Source of the DNA: Noviherbaspirillum denitrificans
GTDB taxonomy: Bacteria; Pseudomonadota; Gammaproteobacteria; Burkholderiales; Burkholderiaceae_D
Length of the DNA stretch: 32,152 bases
Reading direction: 5' to 3'
Assembly (NCBI RefSeq): GCF_002211445.1
Contig: NZ_LSTO01000001.1
Coordinates: 1,897,881 to 1,930,032 of the forward strand
Part shown: positions 14,997 to 26,818 of the stretch, piece after piece
How positions within the stretch are numbered: position 1 is the stretch's first letter
Layout: every line of letters begins with the position of its first letter
Notes under the pieces: model-generated
What the model was told of the DNA's origin: nothing
Database searches by the model: none
What the model saw: only the letters and a program-made list of their open reading frames with translations
Translations under genes and position numbers: made by a program

Positions 14997-16394
14997 ATGC
15001 TAAGGATTTCCAATCACTTCGTTTCGGCAGCAGCGGTGACTTTGCTGCTCGTGGAATCGCTTGTGCTCGTCGGGTCCGCATATCTCGGAGTGTCATTGCG
15101 CTTTCTGGACCTGGACGTTAACGAGGCCATCAAGCGCGACAGCATGCTGTCGTCCGCGCTCGCGTTTGCCGTCGTGATGATTGCAAGCATGAGTGCGTTC
15201 GGCATGTACCAGATCGTTTTTCGCGAAAGCTTCCGCGCAACCTTTTTGCGCCTGATGCCGGCGTGCGTGCTCGGGTTCGTGCTGATGACGCTGGTGTTCT
15301 ATGTGCTGCCGGATCTCTACATGGGCCGAGGCATCCTCGGTTTCATGTTCATGGTGGCCGTGCCGGCCATCCTCTTCACGCGCGTGGTGTTCTTCAAGTC
15401 GGCCCAGACGCGCCTGCTCGAATCGCGCATCCTGTTCCTCGGTGCCGGAGCACTTGCCCAGGAGTGCACCGTGCTTGCACAGGACGGCCGGCTGAATCAC
15501 AAGTACAAGATCGTCGGCTACGTACCCACGAAGGAACCGGATATCTGCGTGCCCGCGTCGGCGCTGCTGCCTTCGAATGAGCCGGTAGACGATCTCGTCA
15601 AGCGCCTGAATGTGACCGAGATCATCGTGGCCGTGCAGAACCGCCGCGGAGGCGGACTGCCGATCAAGGATCTCCTGAGGTGCAAGACCATCGGCATCAA
15701 GGTGACGGACTCGTCGGCGTTCTTCGAACGCGAAGCATGCCAGATTCGCGTCGACTCGCTGCAACCGAGCTGGCTGGTATTCGGCACCGGCTTCGACCAG
15801 GGATTTCTCCGCACGGCGGGCAAGAAGGCCTTTGACATGGTGGTCAGCATTACCGTGCTGATCGTTGCCCTGCCCCTGCTTGTCGTGACCGCGCTGCTGA
15901 TCTTCCTCGAGGATCGCGGGCCGATCTTCTATCGCCAGGAACGCGTAGGCAAGGACGGCAAGCACTTCATGGTGCTCAAATTCCGCAGCATGCGCGTCGA
16001 TGCGGAACGCGCAGGCACACCGCAATGGGCTGCCAAATCGGATCCGCGCACGACCCGTATCGGGCGCATCATCCGTCTGTTGCGCATCGACGAATTCCCG
16101 CAGATCCTGAATGTGCTGAAAGGCGAAATGAGCTTCGTAGGCCCGCGCCCGGAACGCCCTTATTTCGTCAAGCAACTGTGCGAGGAAATCCCCTATTACA
16201 ACGTCCGCCACAGCATCAAGCCCGGCATCACGGGCATGGCCCAGGTCCGGTACCACTACGGTGCATCAGTGGCGGACGCGGTGCAAAAACTGCAGTACGA
16301 CCTGTACTACGTAAAGAACAACAGCCTGTTCCTGGACCTTCTGATCCTGATCGATACGCTACAGGTCGTCATCCTCGGCAAGGGCAGCCGATGA
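14997..16394 (+). CDS. TIGR03013-type PEP-CTERM/XrtA system sugar transferase (EPS initiating enzyme)
   Basis: This 465-residue polyprenyl-phosphate hexose-1-phosphate transferase attaches the first sugar of the repeat unit to undecaprenyl phosphate in the inner membrane. The N-terminal half has about four membrane helices and a nucleotide-binding-like fold (RILFLGAGALAQEC). The C-terminal bacterial sugar transferase domain (about 275-465) starts with a membrane hairpin (FDMVVSITVLIVALPLLVV) and carries FYRQERVGKDGKHF, LKFRSMRVDAE, LRIDEFPQ, MSFVGPRPERPYF and IKPGITGMAQVRY, the standard catalytic signature. GGGAG precedes the ATG. It is first in a forward operon with prsK and prsR, the usual XrtA-locus arrangement. 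Confidence 0.93.
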   Translation: MLRISNHFVSAAAVTLLLVESLVLVGSAYLGVSLRFLDLDVNEAIKRDSMLSSALAFAVVMIASMSAFGMYQIVFRESFRATFLRLMPACVLGFVLMTLVFYVLPDLYMGRGILGFMFMVAVPAILFTRVVFFKSAQTRLLESRILFLGAGALAQECTVLAQDGRLNHKYKIVGYVPTKEPDICVPASALLPSNEPVDDLVKRLNVTEIIVAVQNRRGGGLPIKDLLRCKTIGIKVTDSSAFFEREACQIRVDSLQPSWLVFGTGFDQGFLRTAGKKAFDMVVSITVLIVALPLLVVTALLIFLEDRGPIFYRQERVGKDGKHFMVLKFRSMRVDAERAGTPQWAAKSDPRTTRIGRIIRLLRIDEFPQILNVLKGEMSFVGPRPERPYFVKQLCEEIPYYNVRHSIKPGITGMAQVRYHYGASVADAVQKLQYDLYYVKNNSLFLDLLILIDTLQVVILGKGSR

Positions 16395-16410
16395 AATCCG
16401 GACGGTACTG

Positions 16411-18492
16411 ATGTGGTCCGTCATTGCAGGCGTCAGCTACTCGGTAGCCACGGCTGCCTACCTGCTGCTGTTTGCCCTGCTGCTGGTGAGATGGCGCGGT
16501 GGCCGGCACGGTGCGCTGCTCGTTCTCGCCTGCGGCATGACCGTCGTCTGGGCCGGCGCAATTGTCTTGGCGGCCATGCGCAACCTGCCGATCTCGATGC
16601 AGATCGGCCTGCTTGAAATCTTACGCAACGCGAGCTGGAGCGCCTTCCTGCTCGGCGTACTCAGCCCGTCCTACCGCACGCACCTCATCCTCGGCCTCCG
16701 CCTCAGCAAACAGGTAGTGCTTTTTGCCGGGCTCTACCTGCTGCTGGCCCTGACCTATATCGTCGCGTATGTGGACGACGGTGTTGTCGGCGACCTGGCC
16801 GGCATGATCAGTGGCAGCCCGGGCTTCATCATCATGGCGGTCATGGGCATGCTGCTGATCGAGCAGCTGTTCAGGAGCACTGCCGAGAAGTCGCGCTGGG
16901 CCATCAAGTTTGCCTGCCTGGGCATTGGCGGCATTTTTGCGTACGATTTTTATCTCTATGTCGATGCACTGCTGTTCCGCCAGGTGAATGCCGAGATCTG
17001 GGCTGCGCGCGGCGGCGCGATTGCCTTCGCAGTACCGTTGATTGCCGTGTCGGCGGCGCGCAATCCGGATTGGTCGGTCGGCATCTCGGTTTCGCGCCGC
17101 ATCCTTTTCCATTCGGTGACGCTGATCGGTTCGGCGATCTATCTGCTGACAGTGGCAGCCGCAGGGTATTACCTGCGCTTCTTTGGCGGCGAATGGGGCT
17201 CGGTGCTGCAGGCGACTTTCCTGTTCGGGGCTTTCTTCCTGCTCGTCGCTGTTCTGTTTTCCGGCACATTCCGCTCATGGCTGAGGGTGTTCATCAGCAA
17301 GCACTTCTACAACTACGGTTATGACTACCGCGAGGAATGGCTGAAATTCACACGCATGCTCTCGGTGGAAGGGCCGCAGCTCGGCGAACGTGCAATTGAA
17401 GCGATTGCCCAGCTGGTAGAGAGTTCGAAGGGTGTGCTGTACACGCGCAACGAGACGGACCAGTATGTTGCATCGGCAAAATGGAACACCTCCTTTGCCA
17501 ATGAACCGGAACCGGCCGACAGCGCGTTGTGCAACTTCCTGCGCAACCGGCAGTGGATCATCGATATCCAGGAATTCGACGCGCAGCCGGAAAAATACGA
17601 AGGCCTGTCGCTGCCAGGCTGGCTGCGCCAGTTTCCGCAAGCCTGGCTGGTCGTGCCTTTGATGCAGAACACGACCTTGCTCGGATTTGTCGTGCTGTCG
17701 GAGGCGCGCAGCAAGGTCACGCTGAACTGGGAAGTGCTCGATCTGCTCAAGATCGTCGGCATCCAGACCGCCGGCTATCTGGCCAAGCAGGAATCTGCAG
17801 ATGCCCTCGCGGTCGCACGCCAGTTCGAAACCTTCAATCGCATGTCCACCTTCGTGGTGCACGACCTGAAGAACCTGGTGGCGCAGCTTGCGCTGCTGGT
17901 GGCGAATGCGGAAAAGCACAAGGGCAGCGAGGAATTCCAGCGCGACATGGTGGAAACCATCGAGCATGCCGTGGTGAAAATGCGGGTACTCTTGCAGAAG
18001 TTCAACCGGGAATCGACGACCGAGAAATCGGGCCCTGTCGTCCTCGACAAGATTTTGCAGCAAGCAATCGCATCGAAGGGTGCCGCGGAACCGAAACCGC
18101 AGCTCGACCTGCACCGCTCCGGATTGGCTGTGTCGGCCAACGCGGTACGGCTGGAACGGGTGATCGGCCATTTGATCCAGAATGCCGTCGAAGCGACGCC
18201 GCGCGGCGGGCAGGTGACTGTCAGGCTGACCGAACAGGACGGCAGCGCAGTGATCGAGGTGATCGACACCGGCAGCGGAATGAGCGAGCAGTTCATTCAG
18301 GCGAGGCTGTTCAAGCCATTCGAATCGACCAAGGCGGCCGGCATGGGCATCGGTGTATTCGAGACCCGGGAATATGTCCACCAGATCGGCGGCCAGCTGG
18401 ATGTTGACAGCGAGCCGTCGAAAGGCACAACCTTCAGGGTGAGCCTGCCGCTGTATGTCGACGAGCAGGATTGCGTGTCGAACGCCGCGTAA
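16411..18492 (+). CDS. prsK: PEP-CTERM system sensor histidine kinase PrsK
   Basis: This 693-residue sensor kinase matches the XrtA/PEP-CTERM PrsK family (TIGR02916). The first about 290 residues are a multi-helix membrane domain with no large periplasmic loop, suggesting it senses something in the membrane. A GAF-like region (about 320-460) follows, then the dimerisation and phosphorylation helix with His484 (STFVVHDLKNLV), and a GHKL ATPase domain with an N box (HLIQNAVEAT) and G boxes (DTGSGMS, GMGIGVFETREY). It is expected to phosphorylate PrsR, encoded 11 bases downstream. It starts 16 bases after the sugar transferase stop with only a weak ribosome site, consistent with coupling within the operon. 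Confidence 0.95.
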   Translation: MWSVIAGVSYSVATAAYLLLFALLLVRWRGGRHGALLVLACGMTVVWAGAIVLAAMRNLPISMQIGLLEILRNASWSAFLLGVLSPSYRTHLILGLRLSKQVVLFAGLYLLLALTYIVAYVDDGVVGDLAGMISGSPGFIIMAVMGMLLIEQLFRSTAEKSRWAIKFACLGIGGIFAYDFYLYVDALLFRQVNAEIWAARGGAIAFAVPLIAVSAARNPDWSVGISVSRRILFHSVTLIGSAIYLLTVAAAGYYLRFFGGEWGSVLQATFLFGAFFLLVAVLFSGTFRSWLRVFISKHFYNYGYDYREEWLKFTRMLSVEGPQLGERAIEAIAQLVESSKGVLYTRNETDQYVASAKWNTSFANEPEPADSALCNFLRNRQWIIDIQEFDAQPEKYEGLSLPGWLRQFPQAWLVVPLMQNTTLLGFVVLSEARSKVTLNWEVLDLLKIVGIQTAGYLAKQESADALAVARQFETFNRMSTFVVHDLKNLVAQLALLVANAEKHKGSEEFQRDMVETIEHAVVKMRVLLQKFNRESTTEKSGPVVLDKILQQAIASKGAAEPKPQLDLHRSGLAVSANAVRLERVIGHLIQNAVEATPRGGQVTVRLTEQDGSAVIEVIDTGSGMSEQFIQARLFKPFESTKAAGMGIGVFETREYVHQIGGQLDVDSEPSKGTTFRVSLPLYVDEQDCVSNAA

Positions 18493-18503
18493 AGAGGAAT
18501 ACC

Positions 18504-19856
18504 GTGAGCCAGGATAAGAGGAAATTGCTGATTGTCGAAGACGACGCCGGCCTGCAGAAGCAGCTGCGCTGGAGCTTGGACGCCTATGAAGTACTGACCG
18601 CCAGCGACCGCGAAAGTGCGCTGGCACAGCTGCGCCGCCATGAACCGGCAGTCATCACCATGGATCTCGGATTGCCGCCCGATCCGGACGGGTCGAGCGA
18701 AGGCCTGGCGTTGCTGCAGCAAATCCTTTCGCTCGCGCCGGACACCAAGGTCATTGTCCTGACCGGCAACCAGGACCACGCGAATGCGGTGCAGGCAATC
18801 GCGATGGGCGCCTACGATTTCCACCAGAAGCCGATCGACCCCTCGGTGCTGAACCTGATCGTCGAACGCGCTTTCTACCTGCATGGACTGCAGCAGGAAA
18901 ACCGCTGGCTGCAGATGAACCGCGTGGAGTCGCCGCTGGGCGGTATCATCACGCGCGACCCGGGCATGCTGAAGGTGTGCCGCAACATCGAAAAGGTCGC
19001 ACCGACCTCGGCCACGGTCATGTTGCTGGGTAATAGCGGCACCGGCAAGGAAGTGCTGGCGCGTGCGCTGCACCAGTTGAGCGCGCGCAGCAGCAAGCGC
19101 TTCATGGCGATCAATTGCGCGGCGATCCCGGAGAACCTGCTGGAAAGCGAACTGTTCGGTTATGAAAAAGGTGCGTTCACCGGCGCGGCCAAGCAGACGC
19201 TGGGAAAGATCGAGTTGGCGTCAGGCGGTACCTTCTTCCTCGATGAAGTGGGTGACTTGCCGATGGCGCTGCAGGCCAAGCTCTTGCGCTTCCTGCAGGA
19301 GCGCGTGGTGGAGCGCATCGGCGGACGTGCCGAAATTCCAGTCGACGTGCGCGTCGTGTGCGCGACCCACCAGAACCTGAAGGACATGGTCGCTTCGGGG
19401 CGCTTCCGGGAAGACTTGTATTACCGGCTGAGCGAAATCGTGATCATGATCCCGTCGCTGCGCGACCGGATTGGCGATGCGGCGCTGCTGGCACACCATT
19501 TCAAGAACAAGTTCTGCGCGCAGGAAGGACGCTCGTCGCTGAATTTCAGCGAAGATGCGATGGTCCGAATCGAGACCCATGCATGGCCGGGCAACGTGCG
19601 TGAGATGGAGAACTGCATCAAGCGCGCAGTCATCATGGCCGACGGCCCCCAGATCACGGCCGAAGACCTGGGCCTGGCGGCAGCTGCGGAACCCGATGAA
19701 CCGCTCAACCTGCGGCAGGTGCGCGACGAGGCGGGCCACAAGGCGCTAATCAAGGCGCTGGCGCGCGTCGACGGCAACGCGGTCAAGGCGGCCGAACTGC
19801 TGGGCATCAGCCGGCCGACACTTTACGACCTGATGAACAAGTACGGCATCAAGTAG
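18504..19856 (+). CDS. prsR: PEP-CTERM-box sigma-54 response regulator PrsR
   Basis: This 450-residue NtrC-like activator (TIGR02915 type) has a receiver domain with phospho-acceptor Asp54 (ITMDLGLPP) and Lys109, then a sigma-54 AAA+ domain with Walker A GNSGTGKE (176-183), the RpoN-contacting GAFTGA loop (223-228) and GGTFFLDEVG (Walker B). It ends in a Fis-type helix-turn-helix (AVKAAELLGISRPTLYDLMN). It activates RpoN promoters such as the one before the PEP-CTERM gene in this window. I chose the GTG at 18504, with GAGG 6 bases upstream, over a longer frame that overlaps prsK. Its last 8 bases overlap the convergent ydcF-like gene. Confidence 0.95.
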   Translation: MSQDKRKLLIVEDDAGLQKQLRWSLDAYEVLTASDRESALAQLRRHEPAVITMDLGLPPDPDGSSEGLALLQQILSLAPDTKVIVLTGNQDHANAVQAIAMGAYDFHQKPIDPSVLNLIVERAFYLHGLQQENRWLQMNRVESPLGGIITRDPGMLKVCRNIEKVAPTSATVMLLGNSGTGKEVLARALHQLSARSSKRFMAINCAAIPENLLESELFGYEKGAFTGAAKQTLGKIELASGGTFFLDEVGDLPMALQAKLLRFLQERVVERIGGRAEIPVDVRVVCATHQNLKDMVASGRFREDLYYRLSEIVIMIPSLRDRIGDAALLAHHFKNKFCAQEGRSSLNFSEDAMVRIETHAWPGNVREMENCIKRAVIMADGPQITAEDLGLAAAAEPDEPLNLRQVRDEAGHKALIKALARVDGNAVKAAELLGISRPTLYDLMNKYGIK

Positions 19857-21099: not shown

Positions 21100-23025
21100 T
21101 CATTTCGCATCCAGCGTAACGACCCCATCCCAGTCGGCTTCCGGCGGCCGCAGCGTTGCCGCCGCGGTGCGCTCCAGATACAGGGGCGCCAGTACATCAG
21201 CAGGGTTGGCCGCCCTGATTTCCTTCCACAATCGTTCCGATTCGTCCCAGTTGTGCGACTGCCACGCGGCAATTGCTTCGTCATTTCCTTCCGGAGCCGT
21301 GCCGGGCGTCCAAACATCCACTGCTTCGCTCTTGCCTTTCAGCCTGATCCGATCCAGGCGACGCAAAGGCACACGTCCGCGCAAGGCGTCCGCAGTTGAA
21401 CCGCTGAGCAGGATGCCGGTGCCGTAGACCTTGTTCGCGCCTTCCAGTCGCGACGCCAGGTTGACGCTATCGCCGATGGCGGTGTAATCGAAACGGTCGG
21501 TCGATCCCATGTTGCCCACCACTGCCATGCCGGTGTGCACGCCGATGCGCATGGACAGTTCGGCGACGCCCTTCTTGCGCAGCGCGTCGTTCACCGCCTG
21601 CATCGCCTGCTGCATCTTCATTGCCGCTTCGCATGCATGGAGTGCATGCTCGGGGTCGTCGAGCGGTGCATTCCAGAACGCCATCACGGCGTCGCCGATG
21701 AACTTGTCCAGGGTGCCGTTGCTGCCGATCACGATGGCGGCCATCTCGGTCAGGTAGAAGTTCATGATCTCGGCCACCTCTTCGGGCTCGAGCTTTTCGG
21801 AAATCGAGGTGAACCCGGCGAGGTCGGAAAACAGCAGCGTCACCTCGCGCCGCTCGCCGCCGAGGCGCAGGCGCTCGGGCTGCGCCAGCATCTGTTCGAT
21901 GACCGCCGGCGACACGTAATGGCCGAACGCGCGCCGCACCTCTGCGCGTTTGCGCCGCTCTTCCAGGAAGGCACCTGCGCCACTGCCCAGCCAGGACGTG
22001 AAGATGCCTGCCAGCGGGGCAAACACCGGCCACCAGAGGTTGGCGAAGGCGAACAGGGCCCATGATGCGCCGGCAGTGGCTCCCGCAAGCAACAACAGCG
22101 ACAAGCTCGCACGCACCGGGCTCCATTGGCGGAAGGCAGCGAGGGATACCAGTGCGAGCAAGGCCAGCAGCGCCAGCTTCGACTCCTGGCCGAGTTCCGC
22201 CGCCACGCGCCGCTGCATGGCGGCGTCGATGACATTGGCATTGATCTCCACGCCCGGCATGCGGCGCAGGTTGCGCCAGGAATAAGGCGTGCAGTACATG
22301 TCGACACCGAGCTGGGGAGCGTCGTCCAGATACATGCCGACCAGCACGATGCGGTCCTTGAAAAAGCCGCGTGGCAGGAATTCCCTGGGGTTCAGGGCTT
22401 GGTAATAAGAGACGTAGGAAAAGCTTTTCGCCGGACCGGCATAACGAATCATCGGCCGCTGCGGCAGTTGCGCGAGGTCGACGCTGATACCGGCGGCATC
22501 CAGTACCGTACGGCCGAAGGCATTGTCAAAGGATGGAAAGCGCCGAATGCAGGCGCCCGACAGCGGCACCTTGGCAATACCGGTTGTCGCGCCGGCATCC
22601 AGCAGCGAACGCAGCGGCAGGATCTCGCGCTGCTGGTCGATGTAGCCGTCGCTGCGCTGCTCCCACTCCGCCGCCAGCACGACGTTGCCGGCGCGCCGGA
22701 TGGCATCGGCGAGCGCGGCATCGGCCTGCGGCGTGGAGGGTTCGAGGAAAAGGACATCGAGGGCGATGACCTTGGCGCCCTCTTCCTTCAGCCGGTCGAT
22801 CAGCTCGGCGTGCATGCTGCGCGGCCACGGCCACTGGTGCTGGAATTCGGCGAAGCTCGGCTCGTCGATGCCGACGATGGTGATCGGGCTGCCGGCCGTG
22901 CCGGGCGAGGACAGGATGGTGAGCCAGTCGAAGTTGTTTTCCTCGATGCGTTCCCACCAAGGCGTGAGCGAGAGCAGGCCGAGCATCGCCCACGCGAGGA
23001 TGGCAAGCCCGAAGCGGCGGATCAC
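21100..23025 (-). CDS. CHASE2-domain class III adenylate cyclase
   Basis: This 641-residue inner-membrane signalling enzyme starts with one N-terminal helix, then a periplasmic CHASE2 sensor domain (about 25-275; ITIVGIDEPSFAEF and KVIALDVLFLEPS are typical), and then about three membrane helices (about 280-350). A cytosolic class III cyclase domain (about 385-570) follows. Metal-binding Asp residues are seen in LLFSDLAGFTS (about 404) and FIGDAVMAFW. The Lys in LDKFIGD with the Thr in FDYTAIGD is the ATP-selecting pair of many bacterial cyclases, and SVNLASRLE supplies the transition-state Asn and Arg, so it looks active and cAMP-forming. A short C-terminal helical region follows. Its start is only 4 bases after the stop of the FecR-TPR-barrel gene, so the two are co-transcribed and probably act together. 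Confidence 0.9.
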   Translation of the reverse strand: MIRRFGLAILAWAMLGLLSLTPWWERIEENNFDWLTILSSPGTAGSPITIVGIDEPSFAEFQHQWPWPRSMHAELIDRLKEEGAKVIALDVLFLEPSTPQADAALADAIRRAGNVVLAAEWEQRSDGYIDQQREILPLRSLLDAGATTGIAKVPLSGACIRRFPSFDNAFGRTVLDAAGISVDLAQLPQRPMIRYAGPAKSFSYVSYYQALNPREFLPRGFFKDRIVLVGMYLDDAPQLGVDMYCTPYSWRNLRRMPGVEINANVIDAAMQRRVAAELGQESKLALLALLALVSLAAFRQWSPVRASLSLLLLAGATAGASWALFAFANLWWPVFAPLAGIFTSWLGSGAGAFLEERRKRAEVRRAFGHYVSPAVIEQMLAQPERLRLGGERREVTLLFSDLAGFTSISEKLEPEEVAEIMNFYLTEMAAIVIGSNGTLDKFIGDAVMAFWNAPLDDPEHALHACEAAMKMQQAMQAVNDALRKKGVAELSMRIGVHTGMAVVGNMGSTDRFDYTAIGDSVNLASRLEGANKVYGTGILLSGSTADALRGRVPLRRLDRIRLKGKSEAVDVWTPGTAPEGNDEAIAAWQSHNWDESERLWKEIRAANPADVLAPLYLERTAAATLRPPEADWDGVVTLDAK

Positions 23026-23029
23026 GTCT

Positions 23030-26000
23030 TCAGCTCCGGTATTCGAGCGCCAGCAGCACGGTCCGCCCGCTGCCCGCGTAATCGCGCGCGACCCGATACT
23101 TGCGGTCGAACAGGTTGTTGACGGTGAAGGTCAGTGACCAGTTCTTCGGCGCCGGCGTCCAGTTGACGGTGGCATTCGTCAGCCAGTAGCCGGGTAGTTG
23201 TGACGTATTGGCGAGGTCGGCTTGCACGGCGCCGGTATAGACCTGCGACAGGTTCAGGCGCACATGCGCGGGATGGACCCAGGTGGTGTTCAGCGCAAAG
23301 GTGCGGTCGGGCAGCAGGGGCAGCGTCTTCCCGTCGTTCGCCGCATCGCGGTTGCGTGAGCGCGTTTGCCGGAGCGCGGCCGACACGCCCCAGCGCTCGC
23401 CGAGCCAAAGGTTGACACCCGCAGTGGCACGGTAGATGTCGGCGCGGATGGCGGACAGGTCGTCGAACAGGTCCGGGGAAGCCATCGCGAAGCCGTCGAT
23501 CGCCTGCCGGTCCAGCCGCAGGAAGGTGAAGGTGCGGTCATTCCACTCGCTGTCCCATTGCAGCTGGGTCGCCGCGCTGGTGCCGTTGACGTAGGCGTCG
23601 GGGACGCTGAGGCCGACGGTCGCCATCGGTGCCAGCGGGCCGGTCAGCGGCAGGCGCGCCTGCTTCTGGTATGCCAGGCGCAGCCATTGGCGGTCCACCG
23701 GTGTCCAGGCAAGGCCGGCCTGAGGATGAAGGCGGTTGCTGCTGGTTGTGCCGTTGTCGGCGTGTTCCATCTTGAGGCCGGATTCAAGCAGCAGGTTCTT
23801 GCTTACCGGCCAGCGCAGGTTGGCGTAGGCGAGGCCGCCGCCGAGGGTGGTGGCGGTGTTCTCCGCCCGCAGCGACGACACCCCAAAGGGGAACAATACC
23901 GTCGGGGAATCAGGGCCGAGGACTGCACCGGCATGCGTGGCGGGGACCGACGCCATGTCAGGGAAAGCCAGAAAAGCGTCGGTCAGGACCTGGGCATTCG
24001 TTTTGATTGAGGCAACGCGCTGGTGCACCCATGCCCATTCGGCGCCGATGGCTGCCTGCACCTCGCCTGCGTCGAACATGCGCTTGACCTGCAACTGTTT
24101 CACGCCCGTGACCGCGTGCCGTCGCAGGATGCGGTTGAAGTCGACAGTTGCCGGCAGCCCGTCGGCAAGCTGCGTCGAGCCCGGTAGCGGCACGCCGACC
24201 AGATAGATGGGCGCACTGGGATCAAAGGTCCAGTCGTACAGACCCTGGCGGTAGAACGCGCGCGCCTGTTCGAGCCCGAATTCCGAGACCAGCGACAAGT
24301 CCAGCGGCGACAGGGTGGTGCCGTAAGCGTCGGGATTGGCGAACCGGGCCTGTTCGCGCGCGGCATAGCCCATGACCAGCAATTCGTCGCGGAAGCCCAG
24401 CCGCTTGTGCAGTCCGAGATGGCCGTTGAAGTTGATCGTGGCGGAGCGGTCGTCCGGGTCCGGCTGGGAAATCCCGCCGGGCATGCCGGCCTTGTTGCGT
24501 GTTGCATTCAGCCGCAGTACTACGCCCGTGTCCGGGTCGACGATGGCGCCGAGCGCCGCGCTGATGCTTTCTTCCTTCGCGTCGGCATTTACACGCGCGC
24601 CGGGATCGTAGGAACGCGTTCCCGTCACCAGGTAAGAAAGCGATTGCAGCGGACCGACATCGCGCATGAAGCCCATGGACGTCAGTGACTGGTTGTTCGC
24701 GACACTGCCGCGCTGCGCGGTGAGTCCTGCGCCGATGATGAAATCGTGGCGCGGACGGCGCGGGCCGAATTCGGTATAGCGCGGCGCATAGCTGATGGCG
24801 GTCGGGTCGAGCAGCAAGCCTTGCAACAGGCTGCCCAGGCGTGCATTGTCCGATTCGTATTCCGCCTGCACCGAAAAATGGCTGTTCGCCCAGTACGGGT
24901 TGTACGCGCGCTGGGTCAGGCTGTCGGCCCAGTGGTTCAGGCCGAGGTTGCTGTACGCGGCGGATAGTCCGGAATTGCCCGTCTGGCTGTTTTGGATGCC
25001 GTTGACTGTCACCTCGCCGTAGCGCAGGTAGGTATCGAACGCCTTGCGCGCCTCGCGAATGGCTTCACCCGCCTGGCTGTGGTCCAGCGCGGTGAGGCTC
25101 TTGAGCAGGTAGGGAACCGGGTCGTTGACGTCGTAGCGAACGGCCGTGTCGAGCGTCTTGCCGGCGGCGTCGAAGCGCTCATCGCGCTGATAAGCGATGG
25201 CTAGCAGCGTCTGCGCTTCCGACAGGCCGGGATTGAGCAGCACGGCGCGCAGCAGCCAGTCCAGCGCTTCTTCATTCTTGCCCCGCGCCAGCGCGATCAG
25301 GCCCATGCCTTCATAGCCGGTGGCGAGCGAGGGGTGCAGGTCGATGACCTTGCGCAGCAGCGGCTCGGCTTCGTCGAAGCGTTCCTCGGTGATGTACAGC
25401 AGCGCGAGGTTGGCGTGAAATTCGGGTGCGGAAGGCTGGATCTCAATGGCGCGCAGGAAGGCGCGCTCGGCCCGATGGTGGTCGCCGAGGTCCTGCACGG
25501 CGAGGCCGAGGTCGTTCCACAGTTGTGGTTCGTTGGGCGCGATGGCGAGCGCCTTCTCGACCCGCTCGCTGGCACGCTGCAAGTCCGGCCGCATGCTGAT
25601 GTGGTACAGCGCATCGAGGTGCATGACGTAGGCATGCATCGGATCGAGCTGCTCCGCCGCATCGAGCGTGCTGCGCATCTTGTCGGTATCGCCCAGCAGC
25701 ATCTGCAGGTGCGCGAGCATGATGTGGAAGCGCGCGTCCTGCGGGAAGCGTTGCATGCCCGCTTCGGCCAGCGGAATCGCATCCGCCAGCCGGCCCTGGA
25801 AAGACAGCCGCCAGGTCCGCGCCAGCGCGACTTCGGCGAAATCCCTGAACTCCTGTTCAATCCGGTCGAGCGCGGCATCCGCGGCGGCGAATTCGCGCTG
25901 GCGGATCAGCACGCCGTACTCGGCAAGTTTTTTCGCCAGCCGTTCGCGCCGGTCCTGCGGTTCGGCCTGGCGCAGGAACGCGGCTGCATCGTCCGGGCGC

Positions 26001-26818
26001 TCGTCGTACAGCGCCACCAGCGCGTCGATCAGCGCGGTACGCGCGGGCGGTGCGCCTGCGGCGCGAGCCTCGTCCAGCAGGCGGCGCACCTGCTCCATCT
26101 CCATCAAGTCATAGGCTTGCGCGGCGCGCTGCAGCGGCGTCCCCGCGCCGCCCTTGCGCTTGCGCAGCGCGGTGGCGCTTTCGCCGGTCAGCGAGATGAT
26201 GTCCAGCCAGCCCGCCGATACCTGCCACTGCGCCTGGTCCTTGGGCTGGATGATGTAGCGCTTGACGGGCGGCTTACCCTTTTCCGCATACGCGGTTTCG
26301 CCGCGTTCGACCAGCACCTCGCCGAACTCGTTGAAGAAGCGCACCTGGCCCGAAAGCACGGTCAGCGTCGCTGCGCCGTTCTCGTCGGCGGTCAGCGACC
26401 AGTCGGTGCCGCGCACGGAGACGGTGGCGGAAGGTGTCTCGATGCTGAGCCCGGCGGGAACAGTTTTCGCGCGCATCCACACCGCGCCGCGCTCAAGGCC
26501 GAGGCGGGTTTCGCCGTCGGTGCGGCGGCCGATGTTGCGGATCTGGAGGTTGGTGTTGGCGTGGACGCGGATCTGCGTCTCGTCGCGGAACAGGATGCCC
26601 ATCGCGCCGTAGGGGCCGGTGCGCAGGTTATCGCCTTCGGCCAGCCACTGCTTGAGTTCGAGATGCCGCCAGCCCGGCTGGTCAATGGGATTGAGCTGTT
26701 CGTCGCCCTTGTTGGTGACGACCTGGCCGACGGTGTCGAGCTTGCGCGTGAGGACGTCTGCGTGGGCAGTCAGTGCGACGGCGCAGGCGAGCGCCGCGGC
26801 GCAGCGGAGTGTGGACAA
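23030..26818 (-). CDS. FecR-TPR-outer-membrane barrel fusion protein
   Basis: This 1262-residue exported protein has three parts. A signal peptide (about 1-20, ALACAVALTAHA) precedes a FecR domain (about 60-180) with IRVHANTNLQI, ERGAVWMRAK and TPSATVSVRGTDW. A long TPR array (about 225-600) follows, with units such as LLDEARAAGAPP, VEKALAIAPNEPQLWNDLGL and EPLLRKVIDLHPSLATGYEG. From about 670 to the end comes an alternating, aromatic-rich region that closes with VNNLFDRKYR and GRTVLLALEYRS, the classic end of TonB-dependent receptor barrels. No plug domain or TonB box is visible. The start is a TTG with GGAGA a few bases upstream; no ATG fits. It is the first gene of a two-gene unit with the CHASE2 cyclase. 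FecR plus CHASE2-cyclase neighbours are known in proteobacteria; the added barrel is unusual. The ligand is unknown. Confidence 0.85.
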   Translation of the reverse strand: MSTLRCAAALACAVALTAHADVLTRKLDTVGQVVTNKGDEQLNPIDQPGWRHLELKQWLAEGDNLRTGPYGAMGILFRDETQIRVHANTNLQIRNIGRRTDGETRLGLERGAVWMRAKTVPAGLSIETPSATVSVRGTDWSLTADENGAATLTVLSGQVRFFNEFGEVLVERGETAYAEKGKPPVKRYIIQPKDQAQWQVSAGWLDIISLTGESATALRKRKGGAGTPLQRAAQAYDLMEMEQVRRLLDEARAAGAPPARTALIDALVALYDERPDDAAAFLRQAEPQDRRERLAKKLAEYGVLIRQREFAAADAALDRIEQEFRDFAEVALARTWRLSFQGRLADAIPLAEAGMQRFPQDARFHIMLAHLQMLLGDTDKMRSTLDAAEQLDPMHAYVMHLDALYHISMRPDLQRASERVEKALAIAPNEPQLWNDLGLAVQDLGDHHRAERAFLRAIEIQPSAPEFHANLALLYITEERFDEAEPLLRKVIDLHPSLATGYEGMGLIALARGKNEEALDWLLRAVLLNPGLSEAQTLLAIAYQRDERFDAAGKTLDTAVRYDVNDPVPYLLKSLTALDHSQAGEAIREARKAFDTYLRYGEVTVNGIQNSQTGNSGLSAAYSNLGLNHWADSLTQRAYNPYWANSHFSVQAEYESDNARLGSLLQGLLLDPTAISYAPRYTEFGPRRPRHDFIIGAGLTAQRGSVANNQSLTSMGFMRDVGPLQSLSYLVTGTRSYDPGARVNADAKEESISAALGAIVDPDTGVVLRLNATRNKAGMPGGISQPDPDDRSATINFNGHLGLHKRLGFRDELLVMGYAAREQARFANPDAYGTTLSPLDLSLVSEFGLEQARAFYRQGLYDWTFDPSAPIYLVGVPLPGSTQLADGLPATVDFNRILRRHAVTGVKQLQVKRMFDAGEVQAAIGAEWAWVHQRVASIKTNAQVLTDAFLAFPDMASVPATHAGAVLGPDSPTVLFPFGVSSLRAENTATTLGGGLAYANLRWPVSKNLLLESGLKMEHADNGTTSSNRLHPQAGLAWTPVDRQWLRLAYQKQARLPLTGPLAPMATVGLSVPDAYVNGTSAATQLQWDSEWNDRTFTFLRLDRQAIDGFAMASPDLFDDLSAIRADIYRATAGVNLWLGERWGVSAALRQTRSRNRDAANDGKTLPLLPDRTFALNTTWVHPAHVRLNLSQVYTGAVQADLANTSQLPGYWLTNATVNWTPAPKNWSLTFTVNNLFDRKYRVARDYAGSGRTVLLALEYRS

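Follow-up and report, generated by a model that had tools for sequence, protein, structure and literature searches.

A probable NsrA-CyaK-type receptor-cyclase gene pair in Noviherbaspirillum denitrificans

We analysed a stretch of 32,152 nucleotides of Noviherbaspirillum denitrificans (contig NZ_LSTO01000001.1, positions 1,897,881 to 1,930,032; below, the window), which carries two adjacent open reading frames (ORFs) on the minus strand. The first encodes a 1262-residue protein (23030..26818, TTG start), called here the receptor, and the second a 641-residue CHASE2 adenylate cyclase (21100..23025, GTG start). The two ORFs, separated by 4 bases, were found at the places given in a preliminary description of this DNA, which proposed that an outer-membrane protein controls cyclic AMP (cAMP) synthesis. 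The two genes are likely to form a receptor-cyclase pair of the NsrA-CyaK type, known from Sinorhizobium meliloti, a root-nodule bacterium that senses its host plant with it, and to work as proposed; the window pair is probably a further member of a known, little-studied form of trans-envelope signalling. Signalling from the outer membrane to a second messenger, without a sigma factor and with a published precedent, is well supported.

Results

The window pair is homologous to a gene pair of S. meliloti

An ORF of S. meliloti 1021 pSymB, upstream of the cyaK position and 1219 residues long as called, was 31% identical to the window receptor over 806 residues (E 6.6e-78), and its C-terminal barrel end aligned in addition. 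Pfam detected FecR and TPR in this ORF, the same Pfam domains as in the window receptor. The cyclase encoded next to it was 38.5% identical to the window cyclase over 631 residues; its ORF overlaps the receptor ORF by 1 base, and the same gene is annotated cyaK in S. meliloti strain ml47. By position and size, this homologue directly upstream of cyaK is NsrA. In Garnerone et al. 2018, the NsrA gene is said to lie immediately upstream of cyaK.

According to PMC7529298, NsrA is a receptor of the outer membrane whose residues 600-1200 form a beta-barrel, and the response to plant signal 1 depends on both NsrA and CyaK. NsrA is placed upstream of the cyclases in PMC13001267, PMC10463352 and PMC9927233, and CyaK has the tag SMb20776 in PMC5498481. 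Outer-membrane-to-cAMP signalling without a sigma factor, as put forward in the preliminary description, matches what is reported for NsrA-CyaK, whose genes are homologous to those of the window (PMC7529298).

FecR and TPR parts of the receptor

The receptor is composed, in this order, of a signal peptide, a FecR domain, TPRs, a helical linker and a TonB-receptor-type barrel. A simple hydropathy scan singled out residues 6-24 as the only part of the protein with strong hydrophobicity, as would fit a signal peptide (cleavage, judged by eye, after about residue 21; 26756..26818, minus strand, as for all features of the pair), and the mature N-terminus runs, again by eye, into the FecR part. The FecR domain (residues 63-160; 26339..26632) was matched by Pfam PF04773 (E 1.6e-14) and is beta-rich in the AlphaFold2 model. 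It is followed by a TPR superhelix (about residues 215-608; 24995..26176), part of which is covered by Pfam and NCBIfam TPR models: the strongest Pfam matches lay between residues 341 and 525, and the NCBIfam model PEP_TPR_lipo covered residues 217-492 with a score under its cut-off. The helices of this part were modelled mostly with a predicted local distance difference test score (pLDDT) above 70. The FecR domain and the TPR array noticed at the outset were both, therefore, found by Pfam.

Classical cell-surface signalling would use the same two parts, FecR and a barrel of the TonB-receptor type, with FecR controlling an extracytoplasmic function (ECF) sigma factor encoded elsewhere and the cyclase being an incidental neighbour. 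Here, however, FecR comes after the signal peptide in a polypeptide that also includes the barrel, and the hydropathy scan detected no inner-membrane helix that would place an anti-sigma part in the cytoplasm, unlike what is expected of an inner-membrane anti-sigma protein. Furthermore, no sigma factor model matched any of the 20 scanned ORFs of the window, beside the receptor or elsewhere (the search did not extend to smaller ORFs or to the rest of the genome), and a CHASE2 cyclase is adjacent to the receptor gene in many lineages. We consider this explanation highly improbable. The preliminary description also had FecR sense the plug of a receptor, which has to be corrected: according to PMC5498481, the FecR domain binds FecA at its N-terminal periplasmic part, not at the plug.

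The C-terminal region is a predicted 22-strand barrel

The NCBIfam TonB-siderophore receptor model matched residues 1140-1259 (E 6.1e-16; 58.2 bits versus a cut-off of 223.5), and a profile of residues 540-1262 made from 14 homologues matched solved TonB-dependent receptors (5fp1, E 1.1e-18). AlphaFold2 modelled the barrel region (723 residues, 14 sequences) with a mean pLDDT of 77.7 and a predicted template modelling score (pTM) of 0.75. The model is a barrel of 22 strands by our count of strands of at least 7 residues; it spans residues 690-1261 (23036..24751). Two long loops (model residues 292-356 and 404-442) and four short ones were modelled with low confidence. When it was compared with the Protein Data Bank (PDB) by Foldseek, the best 50 of 407 matches at E 0.001 were all TonB-dependent receptor entries, FecA included, with TM-scores of 0.48-0.62 and 11-16% identity. 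The C-terminal region, which the preliminary proposal needed to be a beta-barrel, is thus predicted to be one by both AlphaFold2 and Foldseek, and the TonB-receptor-like end stands except for the last residues, considered below.

Neither Plug nor barrel models of Pfam matched the receptor at E 0.01, so that no plug was visible by this means either. The protein therefore has, by prediction, the 22-strand barrel of a TonB-dependent transporter or transducer, with no plug domain found; the region preceding the barrel is predicted helical by AlphaFold2. In two homologues (L054 and L057), the receptor carries about 350 extra C-terminal residues beyond the part that aligns with the window barrel.

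PgaA and BcsC are TPR-barrel exopolysaccharide exporters with 16-strand barrels. The window barrel might similarly be mainly a transport pore, as in a TPR-barrel exporter of polysaccharide or in an importer, the cyclase only reporting or regulating transport. Such fusions do export polysaccharides, their models touch the TPR part of the receptor, exopolysaccharide and XrtA/PEP-CTERM genes are present in the window, and a barrel in which no plug model is matched may be an open pore. Nevertheless, the predicted barrel is of the 22-strand TonB-receptor type, and the homologue from S. meliloti is described as a receptor (PMC7529298). A PgaA- or BcsC-like exporter was rejected on scores far under the cut-offs (PgaA, 20.6 bits versus 366.65; BcsC, 17.6 versus 858), obtained over TPR residues only. 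A transport pore is an unlikely explanation of the pair.

A conserved linker precedes the barrel

A conserved helical linker (about residues 609-689; 24752..24994), with invariant residues around a QGxLxDPT motif, joins the TPRs to the barrel. Mean column identity among the 14 sequences was 56% at residues 540-700 versus 37% at residues 540-1262; the former stretch has 15 invariant columns, nine of which fall in residues 609-689, six of these in the motif. When modelled with the barrel, the linker was largely helical; block pLDDT was 77-91 between model residues 71 and 140 and lower at both ends. In the model of the FecR-TPR part, from which the barrel was left out, protein residues 598-700 remained under pLDDT 50; the alignment for that model ends at the barrel, and the comparison is suggestive only. 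Because the linker was mostly confident with the barrel and not without it, we infer that it may pack onto the barrel or within it, where its helices would take the place of the plug.

The cyclase retains ATP-type residues

The CHASE2 sensor domain of the cyclase (residues 13-293; 22147..22989; Pfam E 5.5e-43) lies mostly between two of the three strongly hydrophobic stretches of the protein (residues 5-23, 284-302 and 308-328 in a simple hydropathy scan), namely the first two, an arrangement that would put CHASE2 in the periplasm and the catalytic domain in the cytoplasm. The class III cyclase domain (Guanylate_cyc, residues 393-569; 21319..21849) was matched by Pfam with E 1.3e-24, and the window cyclase matched solved class III adenylate cyclases. 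In an alignment with 20 other pair-associated cyclases, it retained D401, D445, K441, D513, N522 and R526. We take D401 and D445 to be the metal aspartates, and K441 with D513 the pair typical of ATP use. The enzyme thus appears, from its sequence, to be the intact ATP-type CHASE2 cyclase of the preliminary description.

Three pair-associated cyclases that share one family code (L099, L100 and L101) have a Q in place of the adenine-specifying K, and an N or Y in place of the D. Since this pair of residues is altered, they may use another nucleotide.

The receptor gene lies beside a CHASE2 cyclase gene in distant lineages

Forty-one receptor loci were compared: the window, L053-L065 and L094-L120. 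They are not independent, as L111-L114 and L116 share one family code with L115, and two genomes (G049 and G1072) contribute two loci each. Absence of a cyclase was scored by BLAST of the window cyclase against all ORFs of at least 100 residues in the stretch examined. A CHASE2 cyclase gene was present beside the receptor gene, or its tandem copy, at 24 of the 41 loci. At 17 of them the genes are co-directional with the receptor first (window, L059, L061, L064, L094, L096, L097, L099-L101 and L110-L116); in L064 the stretch is cut within the cyclase, which is preceded by a gap of about 415 bases. The cyclase comes first at four (L103 and L106-L108, one genus code), where the upstream gene is a more distant, CHASE2 cyclase-like gene, adjoining in L108 a tandem second copy of the receptor gene. 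The two genes converge at three (L060, L065 and L109); co-transcription alone therefore does not explain the adjacency. Contig ends limit three further loci (L062, L098 and L119). Adjacency, which the preliminary description wished to see conserved in relatives, is conserved in distant lineages.

Several observations weigh against a receptor-cyclase pair of the NsrA-CyaK type. First, no cyclase was found nearby at 14 of the 41 loci (L053-L058, L063, L095, L102, L104, L105, L117, L118 and L120). Second, CHASE2 genes are common anyway: they were present in 99 of 150 genomes of a phylum draw, versus 33 of 34 receptor genomes, a weak test as the draw is not lineage-matched and includes some receptor genomes. 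Third, the receptor ends with YRS, where a terminal F is usual. Fourth, the S. meliloti ORF is only presumably NsrA, on the strength of its position and its length.

Fifth, the trees place the window differently. In the receptor tree, the window receptor groups with the cyclase-less L053-L057 and next with an alphaproteobacterial set; in the cyclase tree, the window cyclase joins the beta/gamma-type pair cyclases (Shimodaira-Hasegawa-like approximate likelihood ratio test (SH-aLRT) 93, not starred) and stands separately from the alphaproteobacterial pair cyclases. Because of this disagreement, the receptor and cyclase of the window may have different histories and may not have travelled together throughout. 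The cyclase tree, in which two of the three other CHASE2 cyclases of the same genome (the one in L049 was left out) and two of the four cyclase-first genes were included, has no single pair-specific group: there are two main pair groups, outside which fall L109, the two cyclase-first genes and the two paralogues from the same genome, these last on long branches. In favour of the pair, receptor and cyclase distances were correlated over 21 pairs (Spearman 0.76; none of 5000 permutations as high), with a permutation that does not remove common descent and with a few ORFs that have extended N-termini.

These loci and trees could also be explained by adjacency without function, the genes co-travelling by chance on mobile or recombining DNA; the cyclase-less loci and the discordant trees fit it, as does the patchy occurrence of the receptor, found in one of 392 family genomes, that of the window. 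This is very unlikely, as the two genes turn up side by side in three arrangements and across distant lineages, and as the S. meliloti pair has published genetic support (PMC7529298). A functional receptor-cyclase pair remains our preferred interpretation.

Distribution of the receptor

With a profile of the linker at E 1e-10, the receptor was detected, the window genome counted, in one of 15 genomes of the genus, one of 392 of the family, 15 of 300 of the order and 13 of 398 of the phylum. No receptor was thus found in the 14 other genus genomes, in which all candidates were scored, nor in the 391 other family genomes, in which at most 9 first-look candidates were scored per genome. With at most 12 per genome in the order and 9 in the phylum, scoring was likewise partial there, and absences in family, order and phylum are therefore not proof. 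The isolation of the receptor in its family suggests that it may have been acquired, or repeatedly lost.

A class draw gave any match at E 1e-8 in eight of 369 genomes, the window genome included, with homologues in G400, G179 and G277; full open frames were established for the class-draw homologues. A scan of genome contigs yielded 13 receptor loci from 35 pattern-matching stretches. A plasmid search at the DNA level gave no match. Among 86 plasmid records with a match, three loci were opened, and the pair was present in all three. An architecture unique to the window was consequently discarded, homologues having been found in several genome scans and on plasmids. The barrel fusion had been called unusual; this is not supported, because the fused layout is the usual architecture of the NsrA-type receptor family.

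The barrel piece was matched in 32 of the 60 genomes searched, the window genome included. Besides the window gene, the matches listed were only partial, in open frames of 171-844 residues, and an ordinary siderophore receptor was not retained as a candidate.

FecR and CHASE2 elsewhere in the same genome

The window genome has four FecR matches and five CHASE2 matches. Each of the four FecR matches has a CHASE2 match at a distance of 0.9-5.8 kb, which speaks for the pair. If placed at random, one FecR match would be this close with a chance of 0.011 and all four with a chance of about 1.6e-8, with a distance limit taken from the same data and matches that are not independent draws. Besides the window cyclase, the genome encodes three CHASE2 cyclases; another CHASE2 protein has a SpoIIE phosphatase domain in place of the cyclase. 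One locus (L050 4062-8784; G000:C1:166061-170783) contains an unfused row of a 444-residue FecR protein, a CHASE2 cyclase and a 495-residue TPR protein. Since all FecR matches are near CHASE2 and an unfused set exists, FecR with CHASE2 looks like a general pairing in this genome.

Neighbouring genes

A homologue of PycTM (PF18967, Pycsar effector) is encoded divergently beside the nsrA-type gene at all nine rhizobial-type loci, S. meliloti included; five of the nine were confirmed by Pfam and four by BLAST. Their positions are 3226-3771 in L121 and L123, 3265-3804 in L122, 9838-10395 in L111, 5231-5770 in L112, 5008-5679 in L113, within 5570-6895 in L114, 9927-10409 in L115 and 5349-5903 in L116. 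No PycTM homologue was found at L110. Literature on these genes, among the matches listed, makes no mention of DUF5706 or Pycsar. It is possible that the rhizobial PycTM homologue is a direct effector of the cyclase product. The window genome had no PycTM match, and a Pycsar-type effector is therefore not part of the window pair.

At L104 (2786-12171), a distant FecR-TPR homologue is encoded between a TIR-nSTAND1-FGE protein and a 1003-residue protein without a Pfam match at E 1e-4. In the window, genes for an XrtA/PEP-CTERM glycosyltransferase, a PrsK kinase and a response regulator are found near the pair (14997-19856).

Discussion

We propose that the receptor would be exported and sit in the outer membrane as a plugless, TonB-receptor-derived barrel, with the FecR and TPR parts hanging into the periplasm. 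A ligand at the outer face of the barrel would alter this FecR-TPR arm, and the arm, by touching CHASE2 on the inner-membrane cyclase, would switch the production of cAMP, with no need for an ECF sigma factor. The outer-membrane location, the direct contact of arm and CHASE2, the sensing of a ligand and the direction of control are all inferred; that the receptor is required for CyaK-dependent signalling is reported for the S. meliloti pair only (PMC7529298).

A broader proposal, which we put forward tentatively and which falls a little short of probable, reaches beyond rhizobia: NsrA-CyaK would belong, as a single branch, to a widespread family of second-messenger receptors that act across the envelope. 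In these receptors, the plug of a TonB-receptor barrel would have been lost, and a helical cork would have been added together with a FecR-TPR arm that spans the periplasm and directly switches a CHASE2 cyclase; the cAMP, or another cyclic nucleotide, may have a further target in rhizobia, the neighbouring Pycsar-type membrane effector. We did not find a fused receptor outside rhizobia, the linker or the rhizobial PycTM neighbour described among the papers listed; Garnerone et al. 2018 may describe some of these.

Should the proposed mechanism hold, the relay of a signal from the outer surface to cAMP, with neither transport nor a sigma factor, would be common to rhizobia and to bacteria distant from them. 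The collected pairs take the receptor family beyond the plant-symbiosis setting in which it is known. Together with the linker, the 20 receptor-first or convergent pairs, the four cyclase-first pairs and the three plasmid pairs constitute a comparative data set in which residues for signal passage from NsrA to CyaK can be tested.

Comparison with known systems

The receptor shares with PgaA and BcsC a periplasmic TPR superhelix fused to an outer-membrane barrel; it differs from them by a barrel of 22 predicted strands, of the TonB-receptor type, and by the presence of FecR. With FecA-FecR-FecI, it has in common a FecR domain, a TonB-receptor barrel and a signal that would pass from the outer membrane inwards. 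In contrast to that system, the FecR of the window is fused to the barrel with TPRs between them, no plug was found, and the neighbouring gene encodes a cyclase, not a sigma factor.

In Campylobacterota, CHASE2 cyclases are reported in clusters that also comprise a phosphodiesterase, a TPR protein and an outer-membrane protein with a FecR domain (PMC9239204, section 9); unlike in the window, FecR and TPR are there in separate proteins, and the cluster includes the phosphodiesterase gene.

Compared with NsrA-CyaK, the window pair differs by an identity of about 30%, by a 4-base gap versus a 1-base overlap in S. meliloti, and by a genome without a PycTM gene. The two pairs are alike in domain order, in gene order, in tight spacing and in a CHASE2 cyclase with ATP-type residues, and FecR, TPRs, linker and barrel end all align with the window receptor. 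In the window as in S. meliloti, a homologous FecR-TPR-barrel protein, whose C-terminal part is in the window a predicted outer-membrane beta-barrel, is encoded directly beside a CHASE2 cyclase.

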